Source: Craspedostauros australis (lineage: Eukaryota > Bacillariophyta > Bacillariophyceae > Mastogloiales > Achnanthaceae). Taken from it: DNA of 64,000 nt. The notes beneath the pieces were generated by a model. That model was not told the DNA's origin, made no database searches, and was given only the letters and a program-made list of their open reading frames with translations. The stretch lies in NCBI GenBank assembly GCA_026770025.1, contig JAMXDE010000020.1, forward strand, positions 62,001 through 126,000, written 5' to 3'. Both the position numbers and the translations under genes were made by a program. Positions 12,543 to 58,185 of this stretch are shown here, piece after piece; the first letter of the stretch is position 1; the number at the start of each line of letters is the position of its first letter.

Positions 12543-13711
12543 TTCGTTCGTGTTTCCCGAGGTGGGGACACAATTAGCTCATCTGTCATCATAAGAGCCA
12601 CGTCGTTGTTTCCCTCCATTCCATCAGTTGCCACGTTGGCCGAGTCTGCCTCCTTCATGGCTGCCTTCAGCTTGAAGCACTGCAGGATCTTATGTCCCTT
12701 CTTACCGCAGTACTTACACTCCCCATTGAACCTGGGCTTGCTGTTGTTGTCTCCTTGGCCACTCTTCTTGTTCTTGCCGTTGCCTTTCTTGGGGGCGGAG
12801 CGGCAGTCTGCCTTCTTGTGGCCGTAGGCGCCACAGTTGCGGCAGTGACCTTTGAAGCCTCCTACTGCAGCGAATGCAGTCTCTTCCTTATTACTGTTGC
12901 TCTCACGTCTGTTGCCGTTGAGTTTGAGGTGTCGGCCGTCGTAGGTGGCACTGACAGCCTCGCGGATGTCTTCGAGGGTCATGGTATCCTCCATACCGTC
13001 GAACTTGAGCTCCAAGAGCTTCACGTCCGTCTCGTATTCCCTTCCGAGGGCGTTGAGTACGAGCATGTGGTACTGTTGTATATCTATCTTGATACCAGTA
13101 CTACCGAGGCGATTACGCAGCACTTCCATCTCGGTCAGGAACATGTCTGGGTGCTCGCCTTTCTTCAACCGCATCCCGTTGAGTTGAGCCAACAACTTTG
13201 CCTTGATAGGCGCAGTACGTTGCTCGTAGATGCGTTCAAGGGCCTTCCACGCCTTGCGTGGGTCTCCACTCTCAGTGGGCCCGCCCTTGGTTCCCACCAC
13301 AGCCATGAAGGCGACATTGCCTTCCGTAGTTTCATGGTTGATCGCCATGGTCAGTTCTTCAAACGCGCACTTAGCCAGCCCATTCTTGTATACTTCCTTC
13401 TCCTCAGCAGTCATCGAGGCTATCTTCTTCGCGATAGACTCACCCTCTTCGATCTTCACATCGGAGATGAGGGCGCTGGGGCCGAAGGGAGCTGGCTTCA
13501 CCTCCACCTTGTCTAGATCCATGAGATACAGGTCCTCAAGGCCCCTGCCCGCGGCGTGAGCTAGGAACTTGATGCTCCAACCTGTCCAGCTGGAACGCTT
13601 GCCGTCGAAGATAACGACGCGGTCGTTCTTGCGGAGATAGGAGCTCATGGTGGTGTGGTGGTGGTGTTGTTTGTTGCTGTGTTGGTGGGTGATGGAAACG
13701 TTGGATTTCAA
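12530..13711 (-). CDS. gag: Copia gag
   Basis: A capsid/nucleocapsid frame of up to 393 residues; a better start is probably the internal ATG near 13648, which opens MSSYLRKNDRVVIFDG. The middle matches the copia gag (UBN2-like) region with a KAWKALERIYEQ stretch. Two CCHC zinc knuckles follow, CRNCGAYGHKKADC and CKYCGKKGHKILQC, which bind the element RNA. It slightly overlaps the pol frame, an arrangement known from Ty1-like elements that reach pol by a ribosomal frame change. It is treated here as part of a virus-like element that looks whole. Confidence 0.9.
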   Translation of the reverse strand: MKSNVSITHQHSNKQHHHHTTMSSYLRKNDRVVIFDGKRSSWTGWSIKFLAHAAGRGLEDLYLMDLDKVEVKPAPFGPSALISDVKIEEGESIAKKIASMTAEEKEVYKNGLAKCAFEELTMAINHETTEGNVAFMAVVGTKGGPTESGDPRKAWKALERIYEQRTAPIKAKLLAQLNGMRLKKGEHPDMFLTEMEVLRNRLGSTGIKIDIQQYHMLVLNALGREYETDVKLLELKFDGMEDTMTLEDIREAVSATYDGRHLKLNGNRRESNSNKEETAFAAVGGFKGHCRNCGAYGHKKADCRSAPKKGNGKNKKSGQGDNNSKPRFNGECKYCGKKGHKILQCFKLKAAMKEADSANVATDGMEGNNDVALMMTDELIVSPPRETRTNWKM

Positions 13712-13729
13712 TCGTAACGTTTCGAAACG

Positions 13730-14507
13730 TGTTGGAAATCCGGGGTTATAGTAGTAGACTAATCTGTTATCAGTCTGTACCGTTTTAGAACTGTGAGCAC
13801 AACATGCTCATCTCCTTTCGATTCCAATTTCATAACAAGCATGATCAGCAGTAGCCATCCAAGGTTACACCCTTTAGCTTGGCTCCTTTCGTCTGCATCT
13901 CCATCTTGCGTTCATTGTGGTTCATCGCTTGCTTAGCTGAGGGTTGGAGAGTACCTACATTCGTCAAGTTCATACTCGTAGACCTGTAGGTACCTCTCCT
14001 TCGGTCTCCTGTCACCTCACTGGTCCCACTTCATTTCAGTTCCTCCCTCCGGTCATCTCGATGGTTGCCTTTGGATGCTTGGAACTTATTGTCGTCTGGA
14101 TCGTGGTCTTGGGTGAATTGGGATCGCCTCTGTTTCGCTTTCTCACATTAGGTTCTCAGGGACGTGTCGACTTGTTTAGATATATTGGTTGTCGCGCTCA
14201 TTCGATTCACTCAGGGCTGGTGTGTTGCCATCGTCATAGATCTCTCGGTTCCCGACCGTTATCGGGACATGGCCGAGTAGGCCACTGGATGAGGGTGCTT
14301 GGATGTCGCATAAGACAGGTACGGCCATTGGGCTGTCCGAGTGCAACTGGTCGATTGCTAGGTTGCGGTTTGTCTGGGAGATGCTATTGAGGGTTGCGGC
14401 AATCATGGGTATCTTTGCACTTAATACCATTCCGGTTCCAGTCAGTCCTCATGGGAGCTGCGGTAGAATAGGGTATCTTTGCAAAGTCGTACCCCCGATT
14501 CCTGACA
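13730..14507 (-). repeat. Copia 5' LTR (right copy)
   Basis: A 778-nt terminal repeat that would carry the element's promoter, since the element reads leftwards. It matches the left copy along its full length apart from a 2-nt length difference near the tgttgg end. The TACTCGTA octamer recurs at 13973-13980. The sequence just inside (before 13730) is where the primer-binding site should be, but I could not match it to a tRNA. Confidence 0.95.
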
Positions 14508-36847: not shown

Positions 36848-39052
36848 CTACGTCGAGACGCTCTCCTCCAGCTGGAGCATGAGCTTCGAGAGTTTCTCCT
36901 CCAGCGGAGGAAGAGACTGCTGGATCACATCCCTCGCCTCCATCCGCTGTCGTTGCGCATCAGCAATCTTTCGGCGCAAAGGATCCTTGTTCTTCTCGAG
37001 GCTCTCGTTCATGCTTTTGAGGAACGCGGAGTCATCGGACACCTTCTTGTGACGTCGCTTCATGGAGACCAACTTCTGCGAAAGCTGCTTGCGCTCTTGT
37101 CGCAAGGCCGCGATGTGCCCCTGCGTGCCGGACCGTGCCTTGCCGCCACGGTAACCATTAGTGGACGCCACGTGCTCCCTCCGGATCTCTTGCAACCGGC
37201 TCTCGTAGTAGATGCGTTGCTGTTCCAGTTGGCTCTTGAGAAGGGTGTAGTACTGAGACGCGAAGCCCTCCAGCTTGCGATGCATGACCTCTCCCTCCTG
37301 CGTGTCGGACAGGCCAGGATTCAGCGACCGTTCTGCCGAGGTCGTGTTGTTCGGATCGTTGGCTTCGACGATCTTGCCATCCTCCTTGTTCTGGAGCAAG
37401 CGATGCACGTACCCCTGGCCTGCGAAATCCCAAACATGTTGCGTTTCCGTGTCCAATGCGTACGCATGCAGCGTGTTGTCGTAGTGCTGACGCGCGTGCG
37501 ACATCAACAGCTGCTGATGATTCTGGGCCGCAGCATTTGCATTGGGGAAGGCATCCGGAGACGACGAGGAAGCGGATGGTGGGACTGCCGATGCCGACGA
37601 ACTGCGGCAAGCGACGTCGTCCGTGTTTCCACCCATGTTCCCGTGGTATGATGGGTTTGCCTGGTTTGCCGCAGACGAAACACCTGCGCATGATACGACC
37701 CCGCAAATCAAGCACACGTAGTTGCGTTCCGTTGTGCCGCAGACGTGGCATTGGCTCAAGGCTTCGTTGAGTCCGGAGTGGTCGTACCGGCAGACCGGGC
37801 ATGGTGAATCCTGGCAACGAAAGAGACAGTCCAAATGGAACGTGTGATTGCAGACCGTCGTCAGGATGGAGGACGGTTCTTTGGTATCATCAAATCCGTG
37901 CCTTGGTTCAATGAACATGTGATCCAGACAAACGGCGCAGTTGTGGTTCTCCTCTGAGATGTTGTGCGGAGAAGCGGCTTTCTTGTCGCGCTGCCTCTTG
38001 TCATGCTGCTTCTTCCCGCCATCGCCATCAATCGATGAAGAAGACGAGAGGATCTCCAACACGCCCGTCGCCGTGCTCTTTGTGGACGGGGCGAAGATCG
38101 GTGACATCAGCGAGACATTGTCGTGACCTCGCAGCGCCAGCACGTGTCGGATGTTGCAGACGACCGACTCATCCAGGATGGTGTAGGGTTGACCATCAAG
38201 GTCATTGACGAAATTTACCGCATCGTCTGGCGTCCAAAGCTGCACCAAGACCAAGTAGTTTCGTTCCGTCTGCCTTTTCTCCGGCATGGTGCTGTCCGCG
38301 TAGTTGTACTGATAACTGTCGCTGTACTTGGCCTCGTCGTCTCCAACTTGTTGGCTGTGAATACGGTCGAAGTCGTAGCCTCTCGCAGAATGTTTGGAAT
38401 CGGTATCGCCCGAAAGGCTTGCCATTTTTATGCTGCGGCTCGATGAGTGCAGCTCATCTTCCGAGGCTCGCAAGGATAGCGCTGACGCAGCGCTCTCCAT
38501 GGACGGTATATGCGGCAAGGATGCGACGCTGAGGTTGTGGTCAGGGTCCTGACTGTGACTTTGGCTGTGATTGTGATCGTGATGCAAAGATGCCTTGGTC
38601 GTTCCGGATGGCGAAGTCAGCTCCATGCCATCATGTTTCGACGATGATGGAGCCAGTTCGTCTGGATCATTGTCATCTTCAGCAATTACGATGCGCACAT
38701 GCTGAATGGATGGCAGGTGAGCTCTTGCCAGGTTGAGCACTCCCTCTGGAACTTGCTCCGGTGGCACACCCACCATGGCAACAATGCGTTCTGTTGCCAC
38801 CGCTCCTTCAATGATGGGACGATCCTTCAGCTGGCTCGCAGGCGCGTGCGCGGCGCCATCATTATCGCCGTCACCAACATCGCTATCATCATTACGCTGC
38901 CCATCATGGCCATAGCCGTGCGACGCCCCGTGCGATGCACCCTCAAGGGTGTACACATTGCCCTTGTAGGTTCCCAAGGCAGGGTTTCCGAAGCTGACGA
39001 TCCGCCTTCGGAACTTGGCTCGTTCTGCTGTCTCTGTTCCCGTTTGCTGCAT
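36848..39052 (-). CDS. BRAP: BRAP2-type RING E3 ubiquitin ligase
   Basis: A 734-residue protein with the architecture of BRCA1-associated protein 2. Residues about 100-330 contain the BRAP2 domain: RIVAMVGVPPEQVPEG, HVRIVIAEDD and YLVLVQLWTPDDAVNFVNDLDG, split by a Ser/His/Asp-rich insert. A RING finger (CAVCLDHM...CNHTFHLDCLFRCQDSPCPVC, residues about 375-425) confers E3 activity. A UBP-type zinc finger follows, CHVCGTTERNYVCLICGVVSC...HARQHYDNTLHAYALD. Then HVWDFAGQGYVHRLLQNKEDG and a long C-terminal coiled coil (about 590-734). In animals BRAP tunes Ras-MAPK signalling and binds import signals. About 60 Ser/Ala/Asn-rich residues interrupt the UBP finger between the SC and HARQHY blocks, where other family members have only a few. 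Confidence 0.88.
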   Translation of the reverse strand: MQQTGTETAERAKFRRRIVSFGNPALGTYKGNVYTLEGASHGASHGYGHDGQRNDDSDVGDGDNDGAAHAPASQLKDRPIIEGAVATERIVAMVGVPPEQVPEGVLNLARAHLPSIQHVRIVIAEDDNDPDELAPSSSKHDGMELTSPSGTTKASLHHDHNHSQSHSQDPDHNLSVASLPHIPSMESAASALSLRASEDELHSSSRSIKMASLSGDTDSKHSARGYDFDRIHSQQVGDDEAKYSDSYQYNYADSTMPEKRQTERNYLVLVQLWTPDDAVNFVNDLDGQPYTILDESVVCNIRHVLALRGHDNVSLMSPIFAPSTKSTATGVLEILSSSSSIDGDGGKKQHDKRQRDKKAASPHNISEENHNCAVCLDHMFIEPRHGFDDTKEPSSILTTVCNHTFHLDCLFRCQDSPCPVCRYDHSGLNEALSQCHVCGTTERNYVCLICGVVSCAGVSSAANQANPSYHGNMGGNTDDVACRSSSASAVPPSASSSSPDAFPNANAAAQNHQQLLMSHARQHYDNTLHAYALDTETQHVWDFAGQGYVHRLLQNKEDGKIVEANDPNNTTSAERSLNPGLSDTQEGEVMHRKLEGFASQYYTLLKSQLEQQRIYYESRLQEIRREHVASTNGYRGGKARSGTQGHIAALRQERKQLSQKLVSMKRRHKKVSDDSAFLKSMNESLEKNKDPLRRKIADAQRQRMEARDVIQQSLPPLEEKLSKLMLQLEESVST

Positions 39053-39825
39053 CTTCTCGGCTCAATGGATGAGAAAGATTGCAAGTATGTCTGCAAAGAT
39101 GTTCTTTCCTGATGATACTCTGCTCTGCGCTTCTGTAGTCGTACTGTTGGAATACTCTCCCTCTTCCCCTCTCTCAAGAGATTACATGCATCATGTGACA
39201 GGTATCAGTGCTCCTGTATTACATTGATCGGGTGAGCGCGTGTCCTTCTCCTTCTGTTTGTGTGTCCATTGGGTGATTGGCGATGTTTCGATCATGTTCT
39301 GTTGGTGTCTGTTCACGTGTGCCTTCGACGAAATCGTTGGAAATCAAGTCGAGTCGTGGGTACTCAGGAACGAAACGCGACATCACAGCCTCCATTTGAT
39401 TCATTTGATTCATTTGATGCATTTGACCTCATTTCCGCCCCCCACGCTCCAACAGCGAGCGTGTCTCCCTTGGTTGTTGTTGGTGATGTATCCTTCCTTG
39501 CACAATCTGTTGCTTCTTGGATTCTTGTTCTCAGAGGAGGGGAAGAAGAACAAAGAATCAAACCTGAATCTCGGAGGAGTTCGCATCCGCTCTCGTGGCT
39601 TTGGCCGCACGCATGCGCTGCAATGCCTGGGGTCCAAGCGTCAGGACGCACAAAGCCTGTACCCACCGCGTCGGCCATCTCGTTTGGGATATGCTCAAAA
39701 AAACGCTGAGCGATCCCAAGAAGAGCAACTCCAACTGCAGAACATCGATGACGACGACGATGGCGGTGGAGACAGCGATGACAACCAACACCCACAACGT
39801 GAACGATGACAGCCAAAGGAGAACG
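39053..39825. promoter_or_regulatory. Divergent upstream region
   Basis: 773 nt between the BRAP2-type start and the propeller-like gene. The plus-strand frame of the latter stays open back to 39595 but without recognisable protein features. A short ATTTGATTC tandem array lies near 39395-39422. Confidence 0.4.
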
Positions 39826-40950
39826 ATGGTAGATGAACATCTGGGCGTCTGGTCATTACGATGGAACCGAGAAGAGAGCACGGCGTGCGTGGCACAGGGC
39901 ATCATCGTCAAGGGCGACAATGTGTGGCTTTCCTGCACCACATACCTGCTCAAGGGTACGATTGGATATGCGAATGAAAGCAGCGCTGATGGCAAACCCC
40001 GTGGTGGGCCGACGCAGATTACGATCACGGACTCCGACATGAATGCCTTGTCCGAACCACGTGGGATTCACCAAGACTACGGTCACATCGGTGATGGATC
40101 TTACATGGAGCTTGCGAACGGAGACGAGGAGATTTGGTTTGGATTGGAAGATGGAGAATGGCCGCGCCGCCAGAATGCTGCAATCGTGCGGTATGATGCG
40201 AAGACGTTGCAATTCCGAGGTTTCCATGCACACCCCAGCTTGCTGCACATGCCGTGGTTGGCCTGCGACAGCGATCGACACGTGGCGTACACCTCAGATT
40301 TTAGCGGAGTGACTGAGTTGACGGTCTTCGACATTGATCGTATGGAGTGGATGAACGCGACCATGGATGGGGGTGCCGCTGTGCCCTCCATCAAGAATAT
40401 GCCACCATTCTTCATTGCGAATGGCGGCATCAACTACATCCAAGGAGGCCAGGTGATGGATGACAAACTTTTCATTATTTCGGACGACTACAAAGGCTCT
40501 GTGATCGCCTTGAGTCTGGATGGCCAAAACGCAGGCGAAATTCTCTCGATCTGGCAACCAGGTCTGGGCAACGAGAGGGAGGGCATGGCAATGACTCACG
40601 AGTATCTCTTTTCGCTCGGGAACCGATGGACGACTTGGGAGAACCAAAGCTTCGCTGAGGTGCTTTGTTTGCCGATCATTCGTCACGACGATGAAGACTC
40701 CGACGGTACATCACACGACGGCGCCAATTTTCCCTTCCGTGATGGGAAAGGCAGTTTCTTGACCGGGGTGCTCACGGGGATGGGAGTTGCACTTTTTCTG
40801 TACAAAGTCGTTCAGCGCGTATCCTCGGTTGCTCAGTCAGGAAGAAGCATTGATACCCGTAGAAGTCCAACCACCGACGGTGATGCCTCAACGTATGATT
40901 TGGGATACAGAGATGAGCCTACGCCAGGCACTGAGATAGAGCTATCTTAG
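39826..40950 (+). CDS. Propeller-like protein with C-terminal membrane anchor
   Basis: From MVDEHLGVWSLRW the product has 374 residues; the frame is open 77 codons further back. The body shows short repeated beta-rich blocks of the kind ending in D-R-type turns: NVWLSCTTYLL, NAAIVRYDAKTLQFRG, HVAYTSDFSGVTELTVFDIDRMEW and GSVIALSLDGQNAGE. This suggests a beta-propeller, perhaps six-bladed. Two N-glycosylation sequons (NESS, NATM) and a single hydrophobic helix near the end (FLTGVLTGMGVALFLYKVV, about 306-324) suggest a lumenal or extracellular domain anchored by a C-terminal helix. No signal peptide is visible, so a 5' exon may be missing. I do not recognise the family. Confidence 0.55.
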   Translation: MVDEHLGVWSLRWNREESTACVAQGIIVKGDNVWLSCTTYLLKGTIGYANESSADGKPRGGPTQITITDSDMNALSEPRGIHQDYGHIGDGSYMELANGDEEIWFGLEDGEWPRRQNAAIVRYDAKTLQFRGFHAHPSLLHMPWLACDSDRHVAYTSDFSGVTELTVFDIDRMEWMNATMDGGAAVPSIKNMPPFFIANGGINYIQGGQVMDDKLFIISDDYKGSVIALSLDGQNAGEILSIWQPGLGNEREGMAMTHEYLFSLGNRWTTWENQSFAEVLCLPIIRHDDEDSDGTSHDGANFPFRDGKGSFLTGVLTGMGVALFLYKVVQRVSSVAQSGRSIDTRRSPTTDGDASTYDLGYRDEPTPGTEIELS

Positions 40951-41410: not shown

Positions 41411-44400
41411 TCACCGATGATACATCTGATCCAACTCACGACGCAGAACACCGGTCAAATAAGCAGTGCGATTTCTCATGGAACCCTTGTCCATGGCGAC
41501 GAAGCGGTTGATGGTATTGAGAGAGATATGCTCGGGGAGTTGAGTGAATATCCCAAGCATGCCTTCATCCAGGTACTGTCCAATCTGTCCCGATGACTGG
41601 AGATTGCGGAGAAGCTGTTGGATGCCGATCGGGATTTCGTGAAATCGGGCGGAAACGCGATGAGGATCATTTGCATTTGCATGCCCATTTGCGTTTCCGT
41701 TTGCGTACCCATTCATATGCCCATCGTTGCGGTTGCCATGGCCTCCATGGCGATTTTGCATCGCTTGCTGGTTCATCTGGGGCTGGTAGCGATTCTGCTG
41801 CGGGGCCATCATATTCGTATTGGGCTGGAAGTTCTGATGCATTGGAGGAGGTGGAGGTTGTTGCTGCTGTTGCGGTCGATATGGCTGTTGCTGTTGTTGT
41901 TGCTGCTGCTGCATGGCAGGGTTTTGGAAAGCACGCTGATTTGGATTTGTGGGATGGACGGCATTGCGCTGAGGGGGGTAGGCAGGGGCAGGAACCGGGT
42001 TAGCGGCAAGAGCGCGAACAGCAGATGCAGCCTTGTCAGCAAGTCCGAGGATATCAACAGAACCAGCACCGCTCGTGCCCTGTCGTTGTTGCTGTTGTTG
42101 CATTTGGACCTGTTGCTGCTGCTGCTGTTGTTGGTTCTGCCACGTAGGCTGAGACATTGCAGGCATGCCCATTGCCATGGCCGGCGCGGGGGCTGGAACT
42201 TGCTGGTACTGTTGTGGCTGATGCTGAAGCTGTTGTTGTTGCTGCTGCGGAGCATACTGGTTTTGGAATTGGGCTTGCTGAGGAGGAGCACCTTGCTGCA
42301 TCGCCTGGAAAGGTGCAGGAGCAAACGGTGCAGGCGCAGCTACATTGGGATTCATCAAGGGAACTTGCTGTATTTGAGGCTGGCGCTGTTGCTGCTGCGA
42401 TTGCTGATTTTGAGGCATCTGGTAGGCAAGCTGCTGCTGTTGCTGTATTTGCTGCTGGCCCATTTGCTGTTGCTGCGGCTGGGAGATCTGGCCTGGCTCC
42501 ATCTGTGACATCTGCGGCGTCATTTGGACTTGCTGTCTCATTTGCTGCTGACCCATTTGCGGTTGGCCAATCTGTTGCTGTCCCATTTGTTGTTGCTGCG
42601 GGATTTGCTGCTGTGGCATCATTCCTGGTGCCACTTGGGTCATCTGCTGTGGTGGCTGCTGTCGCATCATCCCTGGAACCATCTGGGTCATCTGTTGGGG
42701 TGCTTGCTGCGACATATGTTGGGGAGGCTGCTGAGGAACGCCCTGTGCAATGTGCTGGGGGGCCTGCTGAGGAACCATCTGCTGATGTGGCATTTGCTGA
42801 ACCATTTGCTGCTGTGGCTGACCAATGGCAGCGGGAGCAACTTGGGGAGCTGCGTAATAGGATCCCATCTGCTGCTGTGCGGGTGCTGGAGGAACACGTG
42901 GTGGCGTTGGTGCTGATGGGGGAGGTGGTGGTGGAGGTGGCGGCGGGCCACGCATCGAGTTCTGCGGTTGTTTCGGCGGGTATTGATAGTTGCCGCCCAT
43001 CTGGTGTTGTCCTTGATGCTGCTGGCGTTGCCCTTGATGCTGCTGGTGTTGGCGTTGCTGTTGCTGATTGTGTTGGTGGCGGAAATCGCGATTGTTGCCG
43101 AACTGGTTGTGATGATGAACAGCGTTGTTCGGACTACCGCCGTTTGGTCCGTAGGGAGGACCGTGCGTGTTGTCAAACTTCGACCTCTTGTTTGAACGGT
43201 TTTCGTTGTGGTGGCCATGCTTGCGGCCGTGATCATAGCCGCTGTGGTGGCCTTTGCTGTGATTCTGGTTGAACCCATGGTTTGGGGCCTGTCCGTGCCC
43301 ATAGTTTTGATGTGGCTGTGCCTGTTTCATGGCATTCATGCAAGCGTGACATCACATTACGAGCAGAGCCGAGGACAAGAATGTTGGGAGCAGGAAGATG
43401 GGTGAGTTTACTCTTGAGAGGCAATACTCTTCTCGTTGCAGGGTATGACGACTGCATCAGCACAATACATAGAAGGTGGACAAGATGTGGCAACATGCAC
43501 ACACAGTCTGCCCTCTGCTGCCTGCCCCTACACCCGCACAACAACACGCATGACACTTACCGGTGCTACATTGGGGTGCCGACCGTCTTTCCTCTTGCTT
43601 CCGACTCCGATTGCAGAATTGCCGTCAGTCCGGCCTTCGCCTCGCATGTAACGATTCAGAATGCCCATGAAGTAGCTCCCGAAGTTCCTGATGGAAGATC
43701 GGTTGACGGTGTTGAGCTCCTCGATGGCCAAACAGGCGTCCTTCTCGCTGAGCATGCGTAGCTTGCTAGTCACTTTGTCACTGAGCTGCGCCTTTGTGCA
43801 GTAGCCGTTTGATACCAACTTGGCGAGCATGGCGTGGATGTGGGGTGTGAGGCCTGCGCCCATGGGAACACCAGCATTGCCTCCGTTCTTTGCAAACCTC
43901 TCGTGGACTGCTACGTAACGCTTCATGACGCCGAAGAGATAGGCGCCCTTGTTGCGGATTGATTCCGGCTTGGTTTGCATCGCATCTTCATACTCCACCA
44001 GAGCGTCATGAAGCAGATCGACAGGTAGGCCCTTCATTGCGTCAAGCAGCCGGCCATTCAAGACGTTGGAGGGGACTGTTGCGGGTATCTTCAGATCAGC
44101 AGGGAGTCCGTACTTGGTGGGGTTGACGGTCGATACTCGATACTTGGGGGGCGTAGCTTTCGATCCTCTCTGTGATGATGCTGACGCTGCCTTGCTGGAT
44201 TTCTTTGGGATGGCCGCGATCTTCGGGGTCTTGTTGGCAGTGACGATGCACGAGACGGGTCCGTCAGGCATCGGCGGCAGCCCTGGAATGGTTGTGGGCG
44301 GTTTCTTCGGTACAGTGCGCGCTGCCTTGGCTGCTTTCTTCGGGGATTCCACCTTCACAGCAAGTGGAACAGGAGCGGCAGCGAGAGTGGGGACTTCCCC

Positions 44401-44946
44401 AGATTCGGTTGAACTGGTTTCATCTTCGGTCTGTTCGCGTTTGATACCAGGATTGCTGACGGATGTTGCGGTGCTTGGTGCTGCGGAAGCGACGGCGGAG
44501 GGTTCCGGAGCGGGAGTTGCATCGGCAGGAGGGTCAGGAGCAGAGGTAACAACAGCAGGGGCTACGGTAGGAGTGACAGATGGCGCATTGGAGGCAGGGT
44601 CGCCGCCGCCGTCGCCGGAGGGAGCAGCAGCGGGTGAAGCAGAGGAAGCAACGACAATTCCAGCAGGGGGCGTTCCCGAGGAGGCAGTCAAATCCGGGGT
44701 TGCCTCCTGCTCATCCTTGCTATCACCCGAGCAGAAGAGATCTTCGTCGTCATCGTCGTCACCGCCATTTTCAGGTGAGTTGTCATTCACGGCACCGTTT
44801 GGAGCAGACGCGTCGCTCAGCGCAGGTGGCGGCACAGGATCTGACTTGATTTGGCCTTCATCGTGTTTTTCTTCGCTTGGCTCTGTCTTCACCACGACCT
44901 CGTCCGAGGCTGCGGCTGCGGCCACCGCGGTGTCAACAGTCGCCAT
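41411..44946 (-). CDS. Triple acidic-domain-like, Gln-rich protein, two exons
   Basis: Exon 1 (44946-43561) and exon 2 (43321-41411) are joined across a 239-nt intron with CCG|GTAAGT and GAAACAG borders, phase 0, giving 1,098 residues. The N-terminal 280 residues are acidic and Ala/Pro/Ser-rich. Three modules resemble the acidic domain of hnRNP Q/R (a helical fold ending in IRNKxAYLxGVxRR): [15 protein letters not shown] (near 340), [15 protein letters not shown] (near 430) and [15 protein letters not shown] (near 1085, the extreme C-terminus). Between the second and third lies about 570 residues of Gly/His/Asn, then Gln/Pro/Met-rich low complexity, a prion-like composition. There is no RRM, although hnRNP Q has three. 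It probably acts in RNA metabolism, possibly as a condensate scaffold; that role is inference. Confidence 0.7.
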
Positions 44947-45846
44947 TTGGTTGTCTTTGTACTAATCGTATGCCAGTATACTATGCAAGGAATCACTTCT
45001 TCTACTCGAGTCTGTTGCGTGTCTGTGGGGTATGATAGATCGTGCTCCAAGCACCTGTGCTCTCCTCCACCCTTGTTCAAGTCGCGTCCTCCCTTGCTGT
45101 TGACGCAAACGGATTCCTTGCGGATGGTTGCTTGTGGGCGCAAACGCGTTCAGACAGCTCCCTCGCTGTTTTCTGTTGTGCCTGCCAACGCCAAGAATCG
45201 TTTTCTTCTCGTACTGTTGACGCAGTGACCGTGGAACCGGCGTACAGACGAACAGACGGCGCGCGGAGAAGAACTCCCACGAAGATTCACGAATTCGACA
45301 CGATCACGGTTTCTTCCGTAGATTCCACTGTAGATCGTACTCCACACCCAAGTGCAGAGAATTGTAGGAGGTTGAAAGTAGAGTACTTGTAGCGTACATA
45401 GCCGTACGCGCGAGCATCTGTAGCCCGCATCGTGGTGATCGATCTTGAAACACTCCCCACCAGTATCCACCTTTTTCGTAATTGTATGAAAGGAGCCAGT
45501 TCTGCAGTCCTAATTCTCTGGACTTCCTCTCTCTCTGCTGGTATGCGAACAGATGGCAACAGAGAAGATGAATGCTCTGGAGTATCCTACGGATGATGGT
45601 CGTCTACAATAACTGCCGTCGTGCATGCGAATGATACCAGTGATGCAGAGATAGAGTGCTCTCTCTCTCTCTCTCTCTCTCCTCTCTAGATTAGAGCTGA
45701 GTGGGATGTCCTTGGCGCTTTTTTGTTGCTGCTCCTGTTGCTGTTGCTGTTGCTGTTGATGGAAATGACCATGTTTTCTCACGCCTCCACCAACTACCCA
45801 TCATGCTGCGCTGGCAGTTCCTCTACTCTATTCTATGCTCTGCCTG
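44947..45846. other. Intergenic, no gene seen
   Basis: 900 nt upstream of the acidic-domain gene. A (CT)n run lies at about 45658-45685 and CTGTTG repeats near 45725-45755. Open frames overlap on both strands without domain-like content. Confidence 0.45.
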
Positions 45847-46779
45847 CTATGAGAATCTGAATCGTTGGATCTTCGAACCTCCCTTGCTGCCCAAAGTGTC
45901 GGCGTGCACGATTCGCTCCAAACCAAGCTTGGCGGACATGAGATCGATCTGCTGCTCCGTTTCCTCGTCGTATGCGAAGCTCTGCGATAGCAGGAAGACA
46001 CCTTGACCACGATCGAGGAGCTTTGAGACTGTGAGAAGCAACGGGTCGACATTCTCAAAGCAGTAGATCAAGTCGCTGCCGACGATCATGTCCACTTGTG
46101 GCGTCTCCAAACGACCATGGATCTTGTGCTGGAGTCGCTTTATTTCAGCCTCCACGCCCCATTTGAGTTCCTCGAAATAGAACGGAACGGCGCTGATCTC
46201 ATTGAGAACGACGGACTGATCCTCCTCTGTCGTCGCCTGGTCGTACAGTTCCTCCATCGTCGTTTCATGGTTGTTCTTGGCCTTCTCCAAAGTCCCAGGA
46301 TCGTGATCTGTCACGAATACGCAGTCCAAATCCTTCCAAAACATCTGCAATGCGACGATGGCAACCAACGCCGTGCCTGCTCCCAGTTCGACAACCGATC
46401 GCAACTTTCCGTTGCCCGATGCTAGGAGATCTTCTTCAGCGCCATCCAATTTCGCAGGCGTGCGTATCGTTGCTGCGTTCTTCACCAGGTATTCGCACAA
46501 GGCCGGGGCTGCTGGCCACAAGTAATGGCCCGATTGGACCGCCCCCGGTTCATCGTCCACGACGTGCAGAGCGACATGCACGCTCTTGCCTGCGTGCTCT
46601 GTGGTTGCGGCAACTGCACCATCGCCATCATCTGGTTCGGAGGGAAACGCGTAGTGCTTCAACACGGAGGCATGGCTGCCTTCGAACATGAACCCGATAT
46701 CACTATAGATCTCATCTTCATGATCGCTTTCGTCGTCGCTGTTTGATGTCATGACAGCAGATCTCCGTTTCGGTGGCAA
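45847..46779 (-). CDS. Class I methyltransferase (METTL21/Methyltransf_16 type)
   Basis: A 310-residue single-exon protein. SHYLWPAAPALCEYL-like sequence (GHYLWPAAPALCEYL, near 85) precedes the SAM-binding motif I VVELGAGTALVAIVAL (about 128-143). VFVTDHDPGTLEKAKNN forms motif II, and QVDMIVGSDLIYCFEN (near 230) corresponds to the post-II acidic motif. This order is typical of the family that methylates lysines on chaperones, elongation factors or other proteins. In METTL21 members the post-II motif is usually DxxY; here it is DLIY. The likely substrate cannot be told from the sequence. The N-terminus is acidic (Ser/Asp/Glu) and probably disordered. It diverges from the CAP-D2 gene. Confidence 0.8.
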   Translation of the reverse strand: MPPKRRSAVMTSNSDDESDHEDEIYSDIGFMFEGSHASVLKHYAFPSEPDDGDGAVAATTEHAGKSVHVALHVVDDEPGAVQSGHYLWPAAPALCEYLVKNAATIRTPAKLDGAEEDLLASGNGKLRSVVELGAGTALVAIVALQMFWKDLDCVFVTDHDPGTLEKAKNNHETTMEELYDQATTEEDQSVVLNEISAVPFYFEELKWGVEAEIKRLQHKIHGRLETPQVDMIVGSDLIYCFENVDPLLLTVSKLLDRGQGVFLLSQSFAYDEETEQQIDLMSAKLGLERIVHADTLGSKGGSKIQRFRFS

Positions 46780-47450
46780 AGTGCGGTCTGGAATGTGAAT
46801 GCGTACTCCCGAATGTTTAGTCGCCGTCGCCGTCGTTGTCGTCCTTCAGTTACAAAGCTTTGAGCAAGAACACCTCTTGTCTGCATCGAGGCGGAGGGAG
46901 ATGCTGTGACGGTGGGATCGCGCACACATCACCCCCCTCGATGTTGAATGTGTTTGGTTGGTGCTCTTGGTGGCGAACGAACAAAGGTTGGCGCGGCTCC
47001 AATCACGAATATGTTGAATCACGAACCATCATGTTTGACACATGCGTACGACTCGTACGACTAAAATCGAAATTCAAATTTTGAATTCTTGTGTGTCGGA
47101 CATCCATGATTTCTTCCCTGTTTGGTGGCTTTTTCGCTCCGACATCCCCGCCAACAATCACGCGCAATCGGAAAGCAACAAATGCACCATCGCTCGTACT
47201 CCATCATTATTGTCATCGTTGTCGTCGTTGTCATCGTTGTCATCGTTGCCATCATCATCATTATCGTCACATTCATTTCACCATCAACACAGTTGCTGTC
47301 ACATTGCAATCATCATCTTCTTCACAACCATCTTGTTCATAGCAAACAAAGAAGTACAGAGTTCATCACAAGTCGTGGCCTGCGAGAGATCATCTGCGAC
47401 GCAAGTTGACGTTGACTGGCTGATACGCAAGAGAAGGAAAGAGCGCAACA
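46780..47450. promoter_or_regulatory. Divergent upstream region (methyltransferase / CAP-D2)
   Basis: 671 nt between divergent starts. Runs of TCATCGTTG/GTCGTCGTT lie near 47210-47270. No TATA box recognised. Confidence 0.4.
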
Positions 47451-52231: not shown

Positions 52232-54345
52232 AGGACGCGCAGAGTACTAGCAGAATGTGATGCCACGCGAGCATGTATACCGGGACACAAGTAAAATAGT
52301 ATGCAATGGAACAAAATGTGACCGTAGTGGGGGAATCGCACGGGGAAGAAGTTCACATTAACTCACAACGTAGCTTGTGATGCATAGTGATGCCATGCCA
52401 TACAAGAGAGCACGAATGCTCATTTGCAACTCTCCTCTCTAGGCCGTACTCATGTGCTGGCACGAGAGAGCAGGTACACTCTCTCGCAGACATGAAGCTG
52501 TTCATTGCCGCGTCTCTTTGCATCTGTTTTGTCTTGTATCATCATGATTTGGGGGAAGTAAAGACATTGTTTGTCGCCTTGTGCATTGTTCGCAGACATG
52601 GCATCAAATGTGACGTATAGTACATCTCTCTCTCTCTCTGCGTGTTCGTGGCGCCGTTGTTGCATGCGGTGGCAGAGAGTCGGAGGAAAGGAGAGCAACT
52701 GAGGAAGCAATCTGACGTCCAGGGAAGGCCGCAAGGGCGCGGAGGTTCGCGCGTCGCATGAAACGGTGGTGGGAATCGAGGACATGCGAGACAAGGAAAC
52801 GACACAAGAGACACAGGAGGAACCTGTTCGAAGCAAGTATTCTCCGCCACAGAGCGCAACGCGATGCGATGTGTTGACCCAAAAAGGGAGAGTTTTCGTG
52901 ATCGGAACCGACACCGCAACACATGGCCCCGCGAACGTTTCCCCATGATTGGCTTGGCAGGTGTTGCGTGTTCGTATGGTGCGATCCGATGTCGTGTGGG
53001 GTGGTGTACCGTACCATGGCTACGGGTACGAGTCGTGAATCCCCGTACAAACCGATGTTGGCCTCACAAAGTGACGATAGTGTTACGGGTCTGCAGGCGC
53101 GAGGAACACATGATTTCATAAATACGTCCGATCTACGACATGACGATGCGACATGACTAATTATCGAGGCCCCCACAATTTTTGCAAATGGGAAGCCACG
53201 GATTGCTCGGAAATGTGGGGGCAAGAGCACTTACAAGATTGTTTGGGGGTTTGTGGTGACAGCAGTGACCAACGACAACACAGAGAGCGATTCGTCTTCT
53301 TTCTGCGGTTTGGTGAAATTGCTGCCACCACAAAGGAGCTCGCGAGGAAACAAGAGCAGAAAACAGCACGAAACAGCGACAACAACCACAACGACAGCAA
53401 CAGCGCCACACAAACAGTTTCCCTTTTTCTGTCACTTTTCACGAACATCATCACAAAACCAGAAGGCTCCGAGAGAGAAAGGCAGACACACACGCAATCA
53501 CCAACACCAACAGACCAAACGATTGACCCAACAGGACAGAGTCTGTACACGTACACGTTTACCGCATCCATCGTTGGCATCGAAGATACCGAGGTAAGCA
53601 CATCATCAAGTGTTGATGGCATGGGAGTATCCTTGACCGCAAGAGGAAAGGCCTCGCCTGTGTGACTGGGACCAACCATGAAGGGAAAGAATCGACACGG
53701 CGGCATACGCCCGTCACGCACAAAAGATGTGAGCGCAGCAAGACCCTCCGTAGCGCTCAGTACATGTTCTACGTGATCGCTGCTACGTGGATTTTCGTTC
53801 ACAATTTCACATCCCCCCTTCTTGTGATTTTTCTTGGTCTCGACCTGTCCCGCCTTGCCTGATTTCCTGGTTGGTACTCGCGCGCACAAACACACACACA
53901 CACACACACACGCTGGATTCCGCTTTCGACACAATCCACCATGTGGCTGCACTTTCTGCTCTTGCTTTGGATTTTTGGTTGTTGGACACAATTTGCGATC
54001 CTGCATCTGTCGTTCTCGTTCTCCACACCATCCTCATCACCCTCGCTGTTGTGGCCACCTTCCTCTCTCTCTCCCTCTGTGTGTGTGTGTACTCTACACC
54101 TCCGTCTGTGCAGACGCAACAGCCTATTTGACGCGAGGCACACAGAACGCGCAGAGGTGAACACTCTTTTGTCAGAACGAGGCGAACCGTCAACAGCAGA
54201 GCAACCACTCCCGCCACATCTGAGAAGCCAAACACAACGATAGCCGCAACTGCAAAATCCAAACTACGGTCAATACTCATCACCAACAGCAACAGTCAAC
54301 AGCAATAGCCAACAACCAAACAACCAATTCAAAGGCGACTCAACC
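52232..54345. other. Intergenic and probable 5' UTR of the zinc-module gene
   Basis: 2.1 kb. The left part is 3' region of CAP-D2 with no gene seen. From about 53250 on, ACA/CAA-rich sequence probably belongs to the leader of the gene at 54346. A (CA)n run lies at about 53888-53911 and a (TC)n/(TG)n run at about 54062-54090. A 281-codon minus-strand frame at 53161-54006 consists of low-complexity Cys/Val and I do not call it. Confidence 0.45.
53594..54113 (+). other. Possible 5' UTR intron
   Basis: A strong donor, GAG|GTAAGC, at 53593/53594 is followed by a pyrimidine-rich tract and a TGTGCAG| acceptor ending at 54113. It lies just upstream of the zinc-module gene start. Joining the flanks does not produce a longer coding frame, so this would be a leader intron. 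Confidence 0.35.
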
Positions 54346-57300
54346 ATGTCGGGCTATCCACCTGGCGGCCAGTTCGAGGAGAATGAAAACAGCGCCATCG
54401 AGAGGCGGCTGCAGGAGGAGTTCCGCGTGCGACAGGCCAACTCTGGCAGGGTGCCTGGGGCCTTGGCCTTTGCACCAAGGGCGGCGGATCAGAACTTCAT
54501 GACATCGCTGATGGCAGAATCAGCAGCCACCTCCTCCAATCCCTACTACGCTCGTCAGGTTTCGGCGGCAGCTGCCGGGGCTGCATCAAGTCCTTACTAC
54601 TCGCACCCAGGTGCGCTGGCTCAGCCACCGGGCGCGCCCGTGGGGTACGGCGCCAGCGATGCCGTCACAGCCACTCTCTACGCTCACCGCACAGCCGCGC
54701 AGTACGGATACGCCACGGCAGCATCCGCAGCGAATGCGGCTGCCGTGGAGCGGGCGTATGGGTACGGTGCCGTGCCCTCGGCGCGTGATCTTTACTCACA
54801 GCACTTCGCTCACCCTTCCCAGGAGATGTCAGTCCTGGATCGAGCGGCTGCCTACAACGCTCAGCAACGTCAGGCGGAGCAGCAAAGTCTGATGCAGCAA
54901 CAGCAGCAGCAACAACAACAACAACAGGCGCAGGCACAACAAGCGCAGCAGCAACAACAACAACAACAATCAGGTGTTGGCGCGAAACCACCCGCGGCTG
55001 GGCAGGGGCAGGCCATGTCCTTCGTCCAAAATCAGACATCGCCTCCGCCAAAGCAATCGCCCCGATCGCAGCAGCCGGCAGGTGGCACCCCCAAGCCGGT
55101 TGTTCGGTTGGCACCGACCATCAAGTCGACGAAGAAGTCCACGCCGTCCAAAACGACTCCAAAGAAGCCGGCGCCGACGGTCACGGCAGTCAGCGCGAGG
55201 AGAAAGAAAGAGCAGGAAGATCTGGACAACAAGCGATGGTTCTCTGGATGCGTCCCGCTGGGATTGGACGATGACAAGTACTGGCTGTCAGAGCTGCAGG
55301 TGTACTTGCGTTCCAGCTTCGCGGAGTCATTCGGCGCGACGGAGGAAGATATCGCAGCTCCCATGCACGGAAGGAACAAGCCCATCGCCCTGGGACAGGT
55401 CGGCATACGCTGCATGCATTGCAAACGTAAGTTGCCATCCTCTGTAGCGTTGCTTTGTGTCTGGTATACACCATCTTGTTCGCTTGCGATTCCAATGCAT
55501 TGCAACGGTCATCTCGCCATCCTCTTCTTCTCGATCCATCGCTCGTCTTGGTACTGCTCGTTGCTCAATTGTTATGCGTGTTTGATGTCACCCTCTCTCA
55601 CCCCCAACCCTATTCCATGCAACGCTCAATTCAATCCAATACAATCCAATACAATCCCGCTCTTACCTCAATTCACCTTAAATTTCATTCCTCGTCACGC
55701 AACCGCAGACGAAAACCCCGCAGAGCGTGGACAGCAGGCAACTAGCTACCCGAGCCTGATCAGTGGCATCTACAACTCGGTCCAGCAGATGCTTCGTCTT
55801 CACTTGGATTGCTGCCAATCCATGCCGCCAGACGTCCGCCTGAAGATCGAGCAGCTCAAGCTCTCCAGCTCAAGCCGTGGTGGTCGCAAGCAGTACTGGA
55901 TCGATTCGGCGAAGCGTCTTGGGCTCGTCGACACTCCGCACGGCATCCACTTCGGCCGCGACCCGCATGGTCCCCTACCACCACTCTCGGGTCCATCCGT
56001 TAACTCGAAGGAAGGCCGCAAGAAGAAGGAAAACGAAACCAAGGGCGCGTCGCCAGGCACGATCCCAGAGACTAGCCCGAGTAGCCCGGAAGAAAAGGCG
56101 GAAGCCGAGGCGGACACCCTGCCACCGATACCGCAAGTTGAGGAGCGCCCGCTGGTCTTTCCGGAGGACAAGCCGCTCATTTCGGACTACCTGTACCTCA
56201 CCCTGGAGCAAATGAGCCCGTGCGTCCTCATGGAGGCTGATCGTGTTGGGTGCTACAAAACGAGAAAGGTTGGATTTCCTGGACTGGCATGCAAGCACTG
56301 CGTCGGCCAGGCAGGCTGTGGGCGGTACTTCCCAGCCTCGGAAGCCTCATTGTCCCAAACAACGACATCGCAAACCATCATGAATCACGTGCGCAACTGC
56401 AGACGCTGCCCCATCGAGATCAGAGAGAACCTCGAGATCATGAAGCGAGCCCGCATGGGACCTGACGGCAAGCGAGCCGACAAGCCGAAGCATGGAGGCC
56501 GCAAAGTCTTCTTCCACCGCCTTTGGTGCAGAATCCAGGGCCTCCCCATGGAGGACGGCAAGGGCGAACCGAAGGAGAAGAAGAAGCGCAAGATCAAGAC
56601 ACCCACGAAGAAGAGCCCCAAGAAGAAGGCAGTCCCTGTTGACAAGAACAAGGCCAAGGCGGAGGAGAGCAGCAGCCCGCCGAAGAAGCAGAAGGTTGTC
56701 GCGAAACCAGCCCGAGTGGAATCGAGTGATGATACCTCCGACAGTGAACGAGCCTCAGGCGATAGCAGTGAAGAAGACGCCGATCGCAAGTCGAAATCCA
56801 AGTCGGCAACATCGAAAGCGTCGTCTGTCTCGGCTGCTGCTGCAGCGGCCGCAAAACCCAGCCAGCGCCCGTGGTGCGAAGGATGCGTCACGCTCACGAA
56901 GACCGACGATTCAGCCTGGTTGTCGGAGATGCAGAGATTTGCGCGAAGTGAATTGGTCGAGGTTTTCAGCTTTTCGGAGACTGACACGCTGCATGGATAC
57001 AACAGTCGCAAGGAACCGGCCATCGGTCAGGTTGGAATTCGATGTGCGTATTGCAAGACGTTGCCGCCAGAACAACGATCATCGGGCGGTCTGGTCTTCC
57101 CGGACTCCTTGTCTGCCATCAACAGCAAGCTCGTGGACATGATACGCCTGCATTTCCCATCCTGTCCAGGCATGCCCGCTGACAAGAAGGAGACCTTCAA
57201 GTCGCTGCGAAACTTCGGAAGCAAGGCCCTGGATGATAGGTACCAGTACTGGATTGACTCTGCCCGAGACATCGGACTGAGTGCAGTTCCGCCTGGAGGG

Positions 57301-58185
57301 CAGGGTGTCGGCTGGGGCATCTCCTTCCGACGCGATCCGTTGGAGCCGAGTCCCAGCGACGATCTCGAGAGGGAGAAGGAGACAGGCGAATACCCGGAGC
57401 TCGACAAAAATTGCCTCGTGCGTCCGGAAGATAGAGACACATGCACGGACGAAGTTCTGCTCCTGATGCGTCAGGTCCAGCCGTGCACGTTCCAAAAGCG
57501 AGATCGTCGCGTCGGCCCCGGACCACGCGGTCGCGATCGCGTCATCGGATTCCCAGGGTTGTGCTGCAAGTGGTGCGCGAACAAAACCAACATCGGCCGT
57601 TACTTCCCCGTCTCGACGAAAAACTTGACAGTCAACACGTCGAATTCTTTGCTGACGCATCTCACCACATGTAGCCGCTGCCCGGAGACCATCAAGGCAT
57701 CATTGGCGTTCCTTGCCCATCGCAGCATCCTGCAGAAGGCAAAGATCAGCGGCTGCTGGAAGACCACATTCTTCAAGAAGATCTGGGAACGCCTCCACGT
57801 CGAACGGACATGGAGCGAGGATAAGGGTAAGGGCAAAGACGGCAAGGCCAAAGACGGCAAGGCCAAAACCAAGGACGATGCATCTGCGACAGCTTCCAAC
57901 AAAACGGGCGCCAACGGTACGCCAACCAAAGATGGCAAGGCCGATGGAAAGGCCAAGGGCGATCCCAATGACGAAGATATGGGTGAGGGGATGAATGCGC
58001 TCATCAAGGCCGCTGCCATCTGGCTCACCGAGGAAGATCAGGCGACTGATGCAACACGAGGCGTCACTCGATCACGCAGTCGCCCTACAAGTGCCAGCGC
58101 GAAACGATCGGCCACTGTGACGCCAAGATCCAAATCGAGGGGCTCCAGCCTCACGTCCGGAAAGCGAAGGCGTGTGCATTTTTAA
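54346..58185 (+). CDS. Duplicated zinc-module protein (BED-like CCHC), two exons
   Basis: Exons 54346-55426 and 55709-58185 give 1,185 residues. The N-terminus is Ala/Tyr-rich with a long Gln run (near 185-205). Two copies of a paired module follow. Module A has QVGIRCxxC...SGIYN/SAINS...LHxxC, then QYWIDSA and GIHFGRDP/GISFRRDP. Module B has an LVxPEDxxL opening, GFPGLxCKxC, GRYFP and HxxxCxRCP. The CxxC...HxxxC spacing of B resembles BED-type DNA-binding fingers. Between the copies lies a Lys/Ser-rich basic linker with nuclear-signal-like clusters, and a Lys-rich KAKDGKAK tail ends in Arg/Ser. This module pair recurs in diatom predicted proteins as I remember them, without known function. 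The intron (282 nt) has no in-frame stop. Confidence 0.8.
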   Translation: MSGYPPGGQFEENENSAIERRLQEEFRVRQANSGRVPGALAFAPRAADQNFMTSLMAESAATSSNPYYARQVSAAAAGAASSPYYSHPGALAQPPGAPVGYGASDAVTATLYAHRTAAQYGYATAASAANAAAVERAYGYGAVPSARDLYSQHFAHPSQEMSVLDRAAAYNAQQRQAEQQSLMQQQQQQQQQQQAQAQQAQQQQQQQQSGVGAKPPAAGQGQAMSFVQNQTSPPPKQSPRSQQPAGGTPKPVVRLAPTIKSTKKSTPSKTTPKKPAPTVTAVSARRKKEQEDLDNKRWFSGCVPLGLDDDKYWLSELQVYLRSSFAESFGATEEDIAAPMHGRNKPIALGQVGIRCMHCKRKLPSSVALLCVWYTPSCSLAIPMHCNGHLAILFFSIHRSSWYCSLLNCYACLMSPSLTPNPIPCNAQFNPIQSNTIPLLPQFTLNFIPRHATADENPAERGQQATSYPSLISGIYNSVQQMLRLHLDCCQSMPPDVRLKIEQLKLSSSSRGGRKQYWIDSAKRLGLVDTPHGIHFGRDPHGPLPPLSGPSVNSKEGRKKKENETKGASPGTIPETSPSSPEEKAEAEADTLPPIPQVEERPLVFPEDKPLISDYLYLTLEQMSPCVLMEADRVGCYKTRKVGFPGLACKHCVGQAGCGRYFPASEASLSQTTTSQTIMNHVRNCRRCPIEIRENLEIMKRARMGPDGKRADKPKHGGRKVFFHRLWCRIQGLPMEDGKGEPKEKKKRKIKTPTKKSPKKKAVPVDKNKAKAEESSSPPKKQKVVAKPARVESSDDTSDSERASGDSSEEDADRKSKSKSATSKASSVSAAAAAAAKPSQRPWCEGCVTLTKTDDSAWLSEMQRFARSELVEVFSFSETDTLHGYNSRKEPAIGQVGIRCAYCKTLPPEQRSSGGLVFPDSLSAINSKLVDMIRLHFPSCPGMPADKKETFKSLRNFGSKALDDRYQYWIDSARDIGLSAVPPGGQGVGWGISFRRDPLEPSPSDDLEREKETGEYPELDKNCLVRPEDRDTCTDEVLLLMRQVQPCTFQKRDRRVGPGPRGRDRVIGFPGLCCKWCANKTNIGRYFPVSTKNLTVNTSNSLLTHLTTCSRCPETIKASLAFLAHRSILQKAKISGCWKTTFFKKIWERLHVERTWSEDKGKGKDGKAKDGKAKTKDDASATASNKTGANGTPTKDGKADGKAKGDPNDEDMGEGMNALIKAAAIWLTEEDQATDATRGVTRSRSRPTSASAKRSATVTPRSKSRGSSLTSGKRRRVHF
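55427..55708 (+). other. Stop-free intron of length divisible by three
   Basis: Donor AAAC|GTAAGT and acceptor AACCGCAG|ACG. Splicing restores a module A sequence (RCMHCKHENPAERG) parallel to that of the second copy (RCAYCKTLPPEQRS). Retention would keep the frame open and insert 94 residues right behind the CxxC pair. Confidence 0.8.

Follow-up and report, generated by a model that had tools for sequence, protein, structure and literature searches.

A gene on the minus strand of a contig of the diatom Craspedostauros australis is predicted to encode a protein that carries the hnRNP Q acidic domain (PF18360, hnRNP_Q_AcD, alias NURR) three times, and in which no RRM was found. Two copies stand in tandem and the third forms the extreme C terminus, on either side of a Gln-rich core. 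The gene occupies positions 41411-44946 of the window (the whole stretch of 64,000 nucleotides that was analysed) and is read across one proposed 239-nt intron; the spliced frame, 44946..43561 joined to 43321..41411, holds 1098 open codons followed by a stop. Its parts are as follows.

43561..44946, minus strand: exon 1, residues 1-462; ATG at 44946, ends at the donor CCG/GTAAGT
43322..43560, minus strand: proposed intron of 239 nt, GTAAGT...AAACAG (GT-AG), joining the frames without a stop
41411..43321, minus strand: exon 2, residues 463-1098 and the stop codon
44113..44946, minus strand: acidic Ala/Pro/Ser-rich N-terminal region, residues 1-278, pI 4.5
43897..44112, minus strand: AcD/NURR module 1, residues about 279-350, partial on its N-terminal side
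43636..43854, minus strand: AcD/NURR module 2, residues about 365-437, full length, 44.7 bits
43561..43635, minus strand: short basic linker with GSKRKDGRH, a candidate NLS, residues 438-462, pI 10.9
41651..43321, minus strand: low-complexity core, His/Asn-rich and then Gln/Pro/Met-rich, residues 463-1019
41414..41650, minus strand: AcD/NURR module 3, residues about 1020-1098, extreme C terminus; its first helix is modelled from about residue 1015

A sequence-only reading of this DNA had noted a family signature three times in one protein, the last copy at the very C-terminal end. The signature does occur three times, its (I/M)RN beginning at residues 330, 419 and 1077, and the assignment to the hnRNP Q acidic domain is backed by Pfam, by a search of PDB sequences and by a fold search. 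Against PF18360 (Pfam cut-off 26 bits), the whole exon-1 frame matched in two stretches, above the cut-off (E=2.5e-15, 56.8 bits). Each module also matched when taken as a separate piece, as had been anticipated, with just module 2 above the cut-off: module 2 (residues 365-445) scored 44.7 bits, module 1 (285-360) 21.2 bits (E=3.3e-4) and module 3 (1002-1098) 21.7 bits (E=2.3e-4, profile positions 6-68; E=0.0062 within the whole exon-2 frame). One correction applies: of the three matches, that of module 1 is partial, starting about a third of the way into the profile (positions 24-69 of 70, as also in the genome search described below).

When the three modules were combined into a profile and compared with 177635 PDB sequences, three Syncrip sequences came first (E 4.3e-4, 6.4e-4 and 6.9e-4; next match 1.1). 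Used singly, module 1 found fly Syncrip as its best match (6es4, E=0.0015), and module 2 gave two matches only at E<=10, both hnRNP Q (E=1.4 and 1.5). With module 3 alone, the Tm-1 protein headed the list (three sequences, best E=0.021) and fly Syncrip came fourth (0.31); the Tm-1 protein was missing from both the fold search and the profile search, and this match was rejected. Two weak Pfam matches, IcmF_helical (E=0.073, module 3 piece) and P1 (E=0.15, module 1 piece), were dropped, as was one weak NCBIfam match (E=0.01, 15.9 bits for a cut-off of 130).

Structure prediction agrees with this assignment. For module 1, AlphaFold2 worked from a three-row alignment. The module 3 model (aligned with modules 1 and 2) has five helices, a mean pLDDT of 80.4 and a pTM of 0.66; in a Foldseek search of 350,542 PDB chains, its top four matches were four Syncrip chains bearing the domain (E 0.02-0.10, probability 0.98-1.00; next match E=3.8). 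Modules 1 and 2 in tandem were modelled with moderate confidence (pLDDT 71.5, pTM 0.45; the five models range from 71.5 to 37.8), and for this model the same four chains came out on top (E 0.05-0.16, next 2.2). It superposes on 2mxt with an rmsd of 1.5 over 72 columns, a value for a half of the tandem that the output does not name. Helices of at least eight residues are seen three times in module 1, in keeping with its missing Pfam positions 1-23, and four times in module 2. In these models, the five-helix Syncrip NURR fold is thus predicted for module 3, and the full fold is not established for module 1. Structure prediction, which had been suggested as a check, did recover the Syncrip domain, with weak E-values.

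The word 'acidic' is, for the modules described here, a name and not a property. Computed pI values are 6.9, 9.4 and 9.5 for modules 1, 2 and 3, that is, neutral to basic, whereas the corresponding human and fly Syncrip stretches have pI 4.9 and 6.1. Of the earlier description, in which copies lay at the end of an acidic region, the acidic region stands (residues 1-278, pI 4.5), but the modules themselves are not acidic.

The absence of RRMs, also proposed from sequence, held in all of the searches made. In the exon frames, no Pfam family besides PF18360 was found at E<=1, RRM included; ten other minus-strand ORFs within the gene or near it, scanned with Pfam, had none either (eight more lay outside that scan). 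When all six frames of the genome were searched, 93 RRM matches were listed at E<=0.01, none of them on the gene's contig; the search method does, therefore, see small RNA-binding domains in this genome. An AcD followed by three RRMs, the order that defines hnRNP Q/R (SYNCRIP), is not what is found here. The same kind of search with PF18360 over the 74.8-Mb genome gave, at E<=10, three matches from three first-look candidates, all in this gene (module 2 1.6e-9, module 3 0.0148, module 1 0.0579), a count from which intron-interrupted domains, or ones that had diverged beyond the reach of the first look, may be missing. All three AcD copies detected in the genome are thus RRM-free and in one gene. 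Protein searches of the genome with the tandem and with module 3 retrieved nothing at E<=10 beyond the queries themselves, and so no paralogue. The three-module alignment drew 35 pattern matches in one scan of viral contigs, and the tandem drew 23 in one scan of bacterial and archaeal contigs; no relative was among them, and neither scan bears on how common the architecture is in eukaryotes.

The gene is flanked by two ORFs.

45847-46845, minus strand: upstream ORF with a Methyltransf_16 match (Pfam)
39568-40950, plus strand: downstream ORF with no Pfam match at E<=0.01

Other parts of the window may be mentioned in passing. A minus-strand ORF at 36848-39061 is BRAP2-like, with BRAP2 and zf-UBP above the Pfam cut-offs and RING-like matches below theirs. 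The plus-strand ORF at 54244-58185 (1313 residues, no Pfam match at E<=0.01) has Gln runs of 11 and 8 and, as read from its translation, contains a Cys-containing block twice (GQVGIRCMHCK and GQVGIRCAYCK). Two long overlapping ORFs at 7998-13807 (minus strand) carry motifs resembling those of gag and pol in copia-type retrotransposons.

What the modules might bind can be approached from the animal proteins. The domain had been pictured as an acidic, sticky module; this does not agree with human and fly Syncrip, where it binds RNA sequence-specifically (PMC5827114). RNA reading is therefore the first hypothesis for the modules. An R60A/G97L double mutant of the human NURR is impaired in RNA binding with its structure unchanged, and the RNA-induced shifts in the human domain fall in helices 3 and 5 of five (PMC5827114). 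The two residues were located on the PDB chain from its entry title ('24-140') and its length of 118, a placement that assumes one extra start residue; Arg and Gly do occupy those places. By alignment, the equivalents are R299/G339 in module 1, K391/G428 in module 2 and G1049/G1086 in module 3. A basic residue is thus present at the R60 position in two of the three modules and Gly at the G97 position in all three, and module 2 is the only one in which a full profile match goes with retention of both positions (with Lys replacing Arg). The G97 position sits in the family signature, and packing may explain the retention of its Gly. Since the sequence preference of the domain is not the same in human and fly (PMC5827114), no RNA motif can be predicted for the modules described here.

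The N-terminal region contains three short motifs of interest.

44881..44892, minus strand: SUMO-consensus-like VKTE, residues 19-22
44434..44445, minus strand: SUMO-consensus-like IKRE, residues 168-171
44347..44358, minus strand: SUMO-consensus-like VKVE, residues 197-200

These are the three matches in residues 1-278 to [VILMF]KxE, the pattern of the SUMO consensus, and all are of the form [VI]KxE. Shuffled versions of the region gave a mean of 0.16 matches, and at least three in 3 of 20000 shuffles. Among ten other ORFs of the window, [VI]KxE occurred once in each of two and not at all in eight. On the C-terminal side of the tandem, the linker of residues 438-462 with its GSKRKDGRH is a candidate nuclear localisation signal.

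Between modules 2 and 3, the low-complexity middle that had been described as rich in Gln, Pro and Met is as stated: in residues 463-1018, Gln accounts for 29%, Pro for 14.6% and Met for 6.5%, and the core is basic by computed pI. Gln plus Asn reaches up to 56% per 80 residues, and 423 stretches of that length are at 30% or more. By composition, the core is a Q/N-rich low-complexity region that may be prion-like, with Pro at 14.6%. Elsewhere in the window, one of the ten other ORFs reaches 45% Gln plus Asn per 80 residues, and three have runs of four or more Gln. The core is interrupted by one short segment, read from the sequence, that could form an amphipathic-like helix and possibly serve as a docking motif.

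41996..42079, minus strand: non-Gln island in the core, residues 877-904, without a Pfam match

A recent, pure CAG expansion was considered as the origin of the core. The gene uses 106 CAG and 68 CAA codons for Gln (CAA 39%), the ten other ORFs together 217 and 129 (CAA 37%), and none of the ten stretches of at least four Gln is built from one codon only. With a CAA share close to that of the other ORFs, such an expansion is not supported.

We propose that the gene encodes one nuclear protein acting as an RNA-binding scaffold, with tandem readers, a sticky core and a third module, a reading that we hold to be evenly balanced between right and wrong. A common mRNA for both exons, residence in the nucleus, disorder, binding of RNA, modification by SUMO and condensation are all inferred. 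The earlier notion of a multivalent scaffold with sticky ends and a core inclined to condense is conjectural in the same way. The acidic, disordered N terminus, probably a SUMO target, would lead into modules 1 and 2, which in tandem would recognise short motifs in single-stranded RNA, weakly one by one and more strongly together. The core, of about 550 residues rich in Gln, Pro and Met, would supply weak multivalent contacts with itself or with partners, and the diverged C-terminal module would add a further contact, with RNA of another specificity or with protein. By itself, the human NURR has a Kd of about 29 uM for its miRNA target, the RRMs being needed for about 2 nM, and it is described as a cryptic RNA-binding domain that in Syncrip needs the adjoining RRMs for high affinity (PMC5827114). 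Several copies per chain could, therefore, regain by avidity the affinity that a lone domain lacks. The scaffold reading is favoured by the three PF18360 matches and the first rank of the Syncrip NURR in both fold searches; by the retention, in modules 1 and 2, of Arg or Lys and of Gly where Syncrip was mutated; and by the predicted charge (modules 2 and 3 and the core basic, module 1 neutral) and the three N-terminal [VI]KxE motifs. Speaking against it are the lack of a basic side chain at the R60 position of module 3, the partial module 1, the weak Foldseek E-values (best 0.02 and 0.05) with a tandem model at pLDDT 71.5 and pTM 0.45, and the precedence of the Tm-1 protein over Syncrip when module 3 is searched alone in PDB sequences. 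The Gln-rich core, moreover, need not be special, with Gln runs in three of ten other ORFs of the window.

The main rival, which we regard as rather unlikely, is that the modules are protein-protein docking domains, the protein being a Gln-rich transcription or chromatin adaptor and not an RNA reader; its Gln/Pro/Met core would then work like an activation or coactivator low-complexity region. Exon frames without an RRM or any other Pfam family would suit such an adaptor, as would the missing basic residue in module 3. The cluster of SUMO-like motifs points the same way, such clusters being common in transcription regulators. There is also precedent for docking in animals: the Syncrip N-terminal domain is reported to mediate interaction with an Apobec protein (PMC5827114), and the hnRNP R N terminus contributes to association with Yb1 (PMC8643683). 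The latter association, however, is only slightly reduced without the N terminus and more so without the RRMs (PMC8643683), and the presence in modules 1 and 2 of Arg or Lys and of Gly at both Syncrip-tested positions speaks against this rival.

The RNA-scaffold reading also depends on the two exons forming one gene, which is supported by the splice signals and by the presence of modules on both sides of the intron. Should the intron not be spliced, exon 1 would run ten codons past the donor to a stop at 43528, giving a product of 472 residues with two modules, and exon 2 could belong to a separate Gln-rich gene with its ATG within the proposed intron. For such a pair of adjacent genes, one can cite this ten-codon continuation, the upstream ATGs in the frame of exon 2 (for example, MNAMKQ) and the absence of marked pyrimidine richness ahead of the acceptor. 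The GTAAGT donor and the CAG acceptor nevertheless join the frames in phase. The length of 239 nt is close to the 260 and 283 nt of two apparent introns that were chosen by visual inspection in the window's kinase and condensin genes; the ends of these introns (GTAAGT..CACAG and GTGCGT..TACAG) are similar to those proposed here. The three domain matches of the genome, moreover, are divided over both exons, for which a single gene is the simpler account and a tandem pair a possible one. We consider the two-gene arrangement improbable. Opposite the gene, two long antisense frames are open on the plus strand (42148-43272 and 44012-44965, 374 and 317 residues); they are probably shadows of its biased composition.

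The modules share 23-26% pairwise identity, and chance resemblance was considered as an explanation. HMMs were built from two modules and used to score the third. Module 3 obtained 14.3 bits, module 2 22.9 and module 1 20.0, compared to 9.1, 11.0 and 5.1 for the best of 5000 shuffles, and to 4.7, 5.2 and 3.8 for the best of the other ORFs (the 945 stop-to-stop ORFs of the window minus the two that bear modules). Three tests with single-module HMMs also beat all 5000 shuffles, with small margins for module 3 (10.0 against a best shuffle of 8.1, and 12.0 against 11.4). That the domain matches are artefacts of chance or composition is therefore very improbable: modules 1 and 3 do fall under the Pfam cut-off, with the genome-wide E-values given above, and module 3 alone does rank the Tm-1 protein first, but no shuffle reached the score in any of the three leave-one-out tests, Syncrip leads both the profile search and the fold searches of the two models, all three genome matches lie in one gene and on one strand, and for module 2 the Pfam cut-off contradicts this explanation.

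Compared with SYNCRIP / hnRNP Q, which is built of an AcD (NURR), an extended RRM1 and two more RRMs, the protein has the same small helical domain by all three kinds of search, and Arg or Lys and Gly at the tested RNA-binding positions in two of its three copies. It differs in having three copies and not one, in the C-terminal placement of one of them and in the lack of a detected RRM, and so of any RRM-linked extension. DND1, RBM46, RBM47 and A1CF are AcD-RRM proteins with a related N-terminal domain; being RRM proteins, they are unlike the RRM-less protein described here. hnRNP R combines an acidic domain, three RRMs, an NLS, RGG and a C-terminal Q/N cluster (PMC8643683). An AcD, a candidate NLS and Gln/Asn-rich low complexity are likewise united in the protein described here, whereas the RRMs are missing, the AcD is triplicated and a Gln-rich stretch of about 550 residues occupies the middle. 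As hnRNP R ends in a Gln/Asn cluster (PMC8643683), the pairing of an AcD with a Q/N-rich region has a precedent. No description of an RRM-less, triple-AcD arrangement was found in searches of an open-licence library that leaves out most subscription journals. The pairing of the domain with a Q/N-rich region is thus known, and what appears new is the triplication together with the absence of RRMs.

A broader and doubtful possibility is that NURR/AcD is an older, self-sufficient RNA-recognition module, arrayed around a prion-like core in some protists, and that the animal arrangement of one copy with RRM1 is a later fusion. The protein would also show that the domain can exist apart from the animal hnRNP Q/R architecture. 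It would amount to a natural experiment that asks if avidity is enough for NURR to function unaided, and may offer a compact test case for valency-driven RNP assembly.
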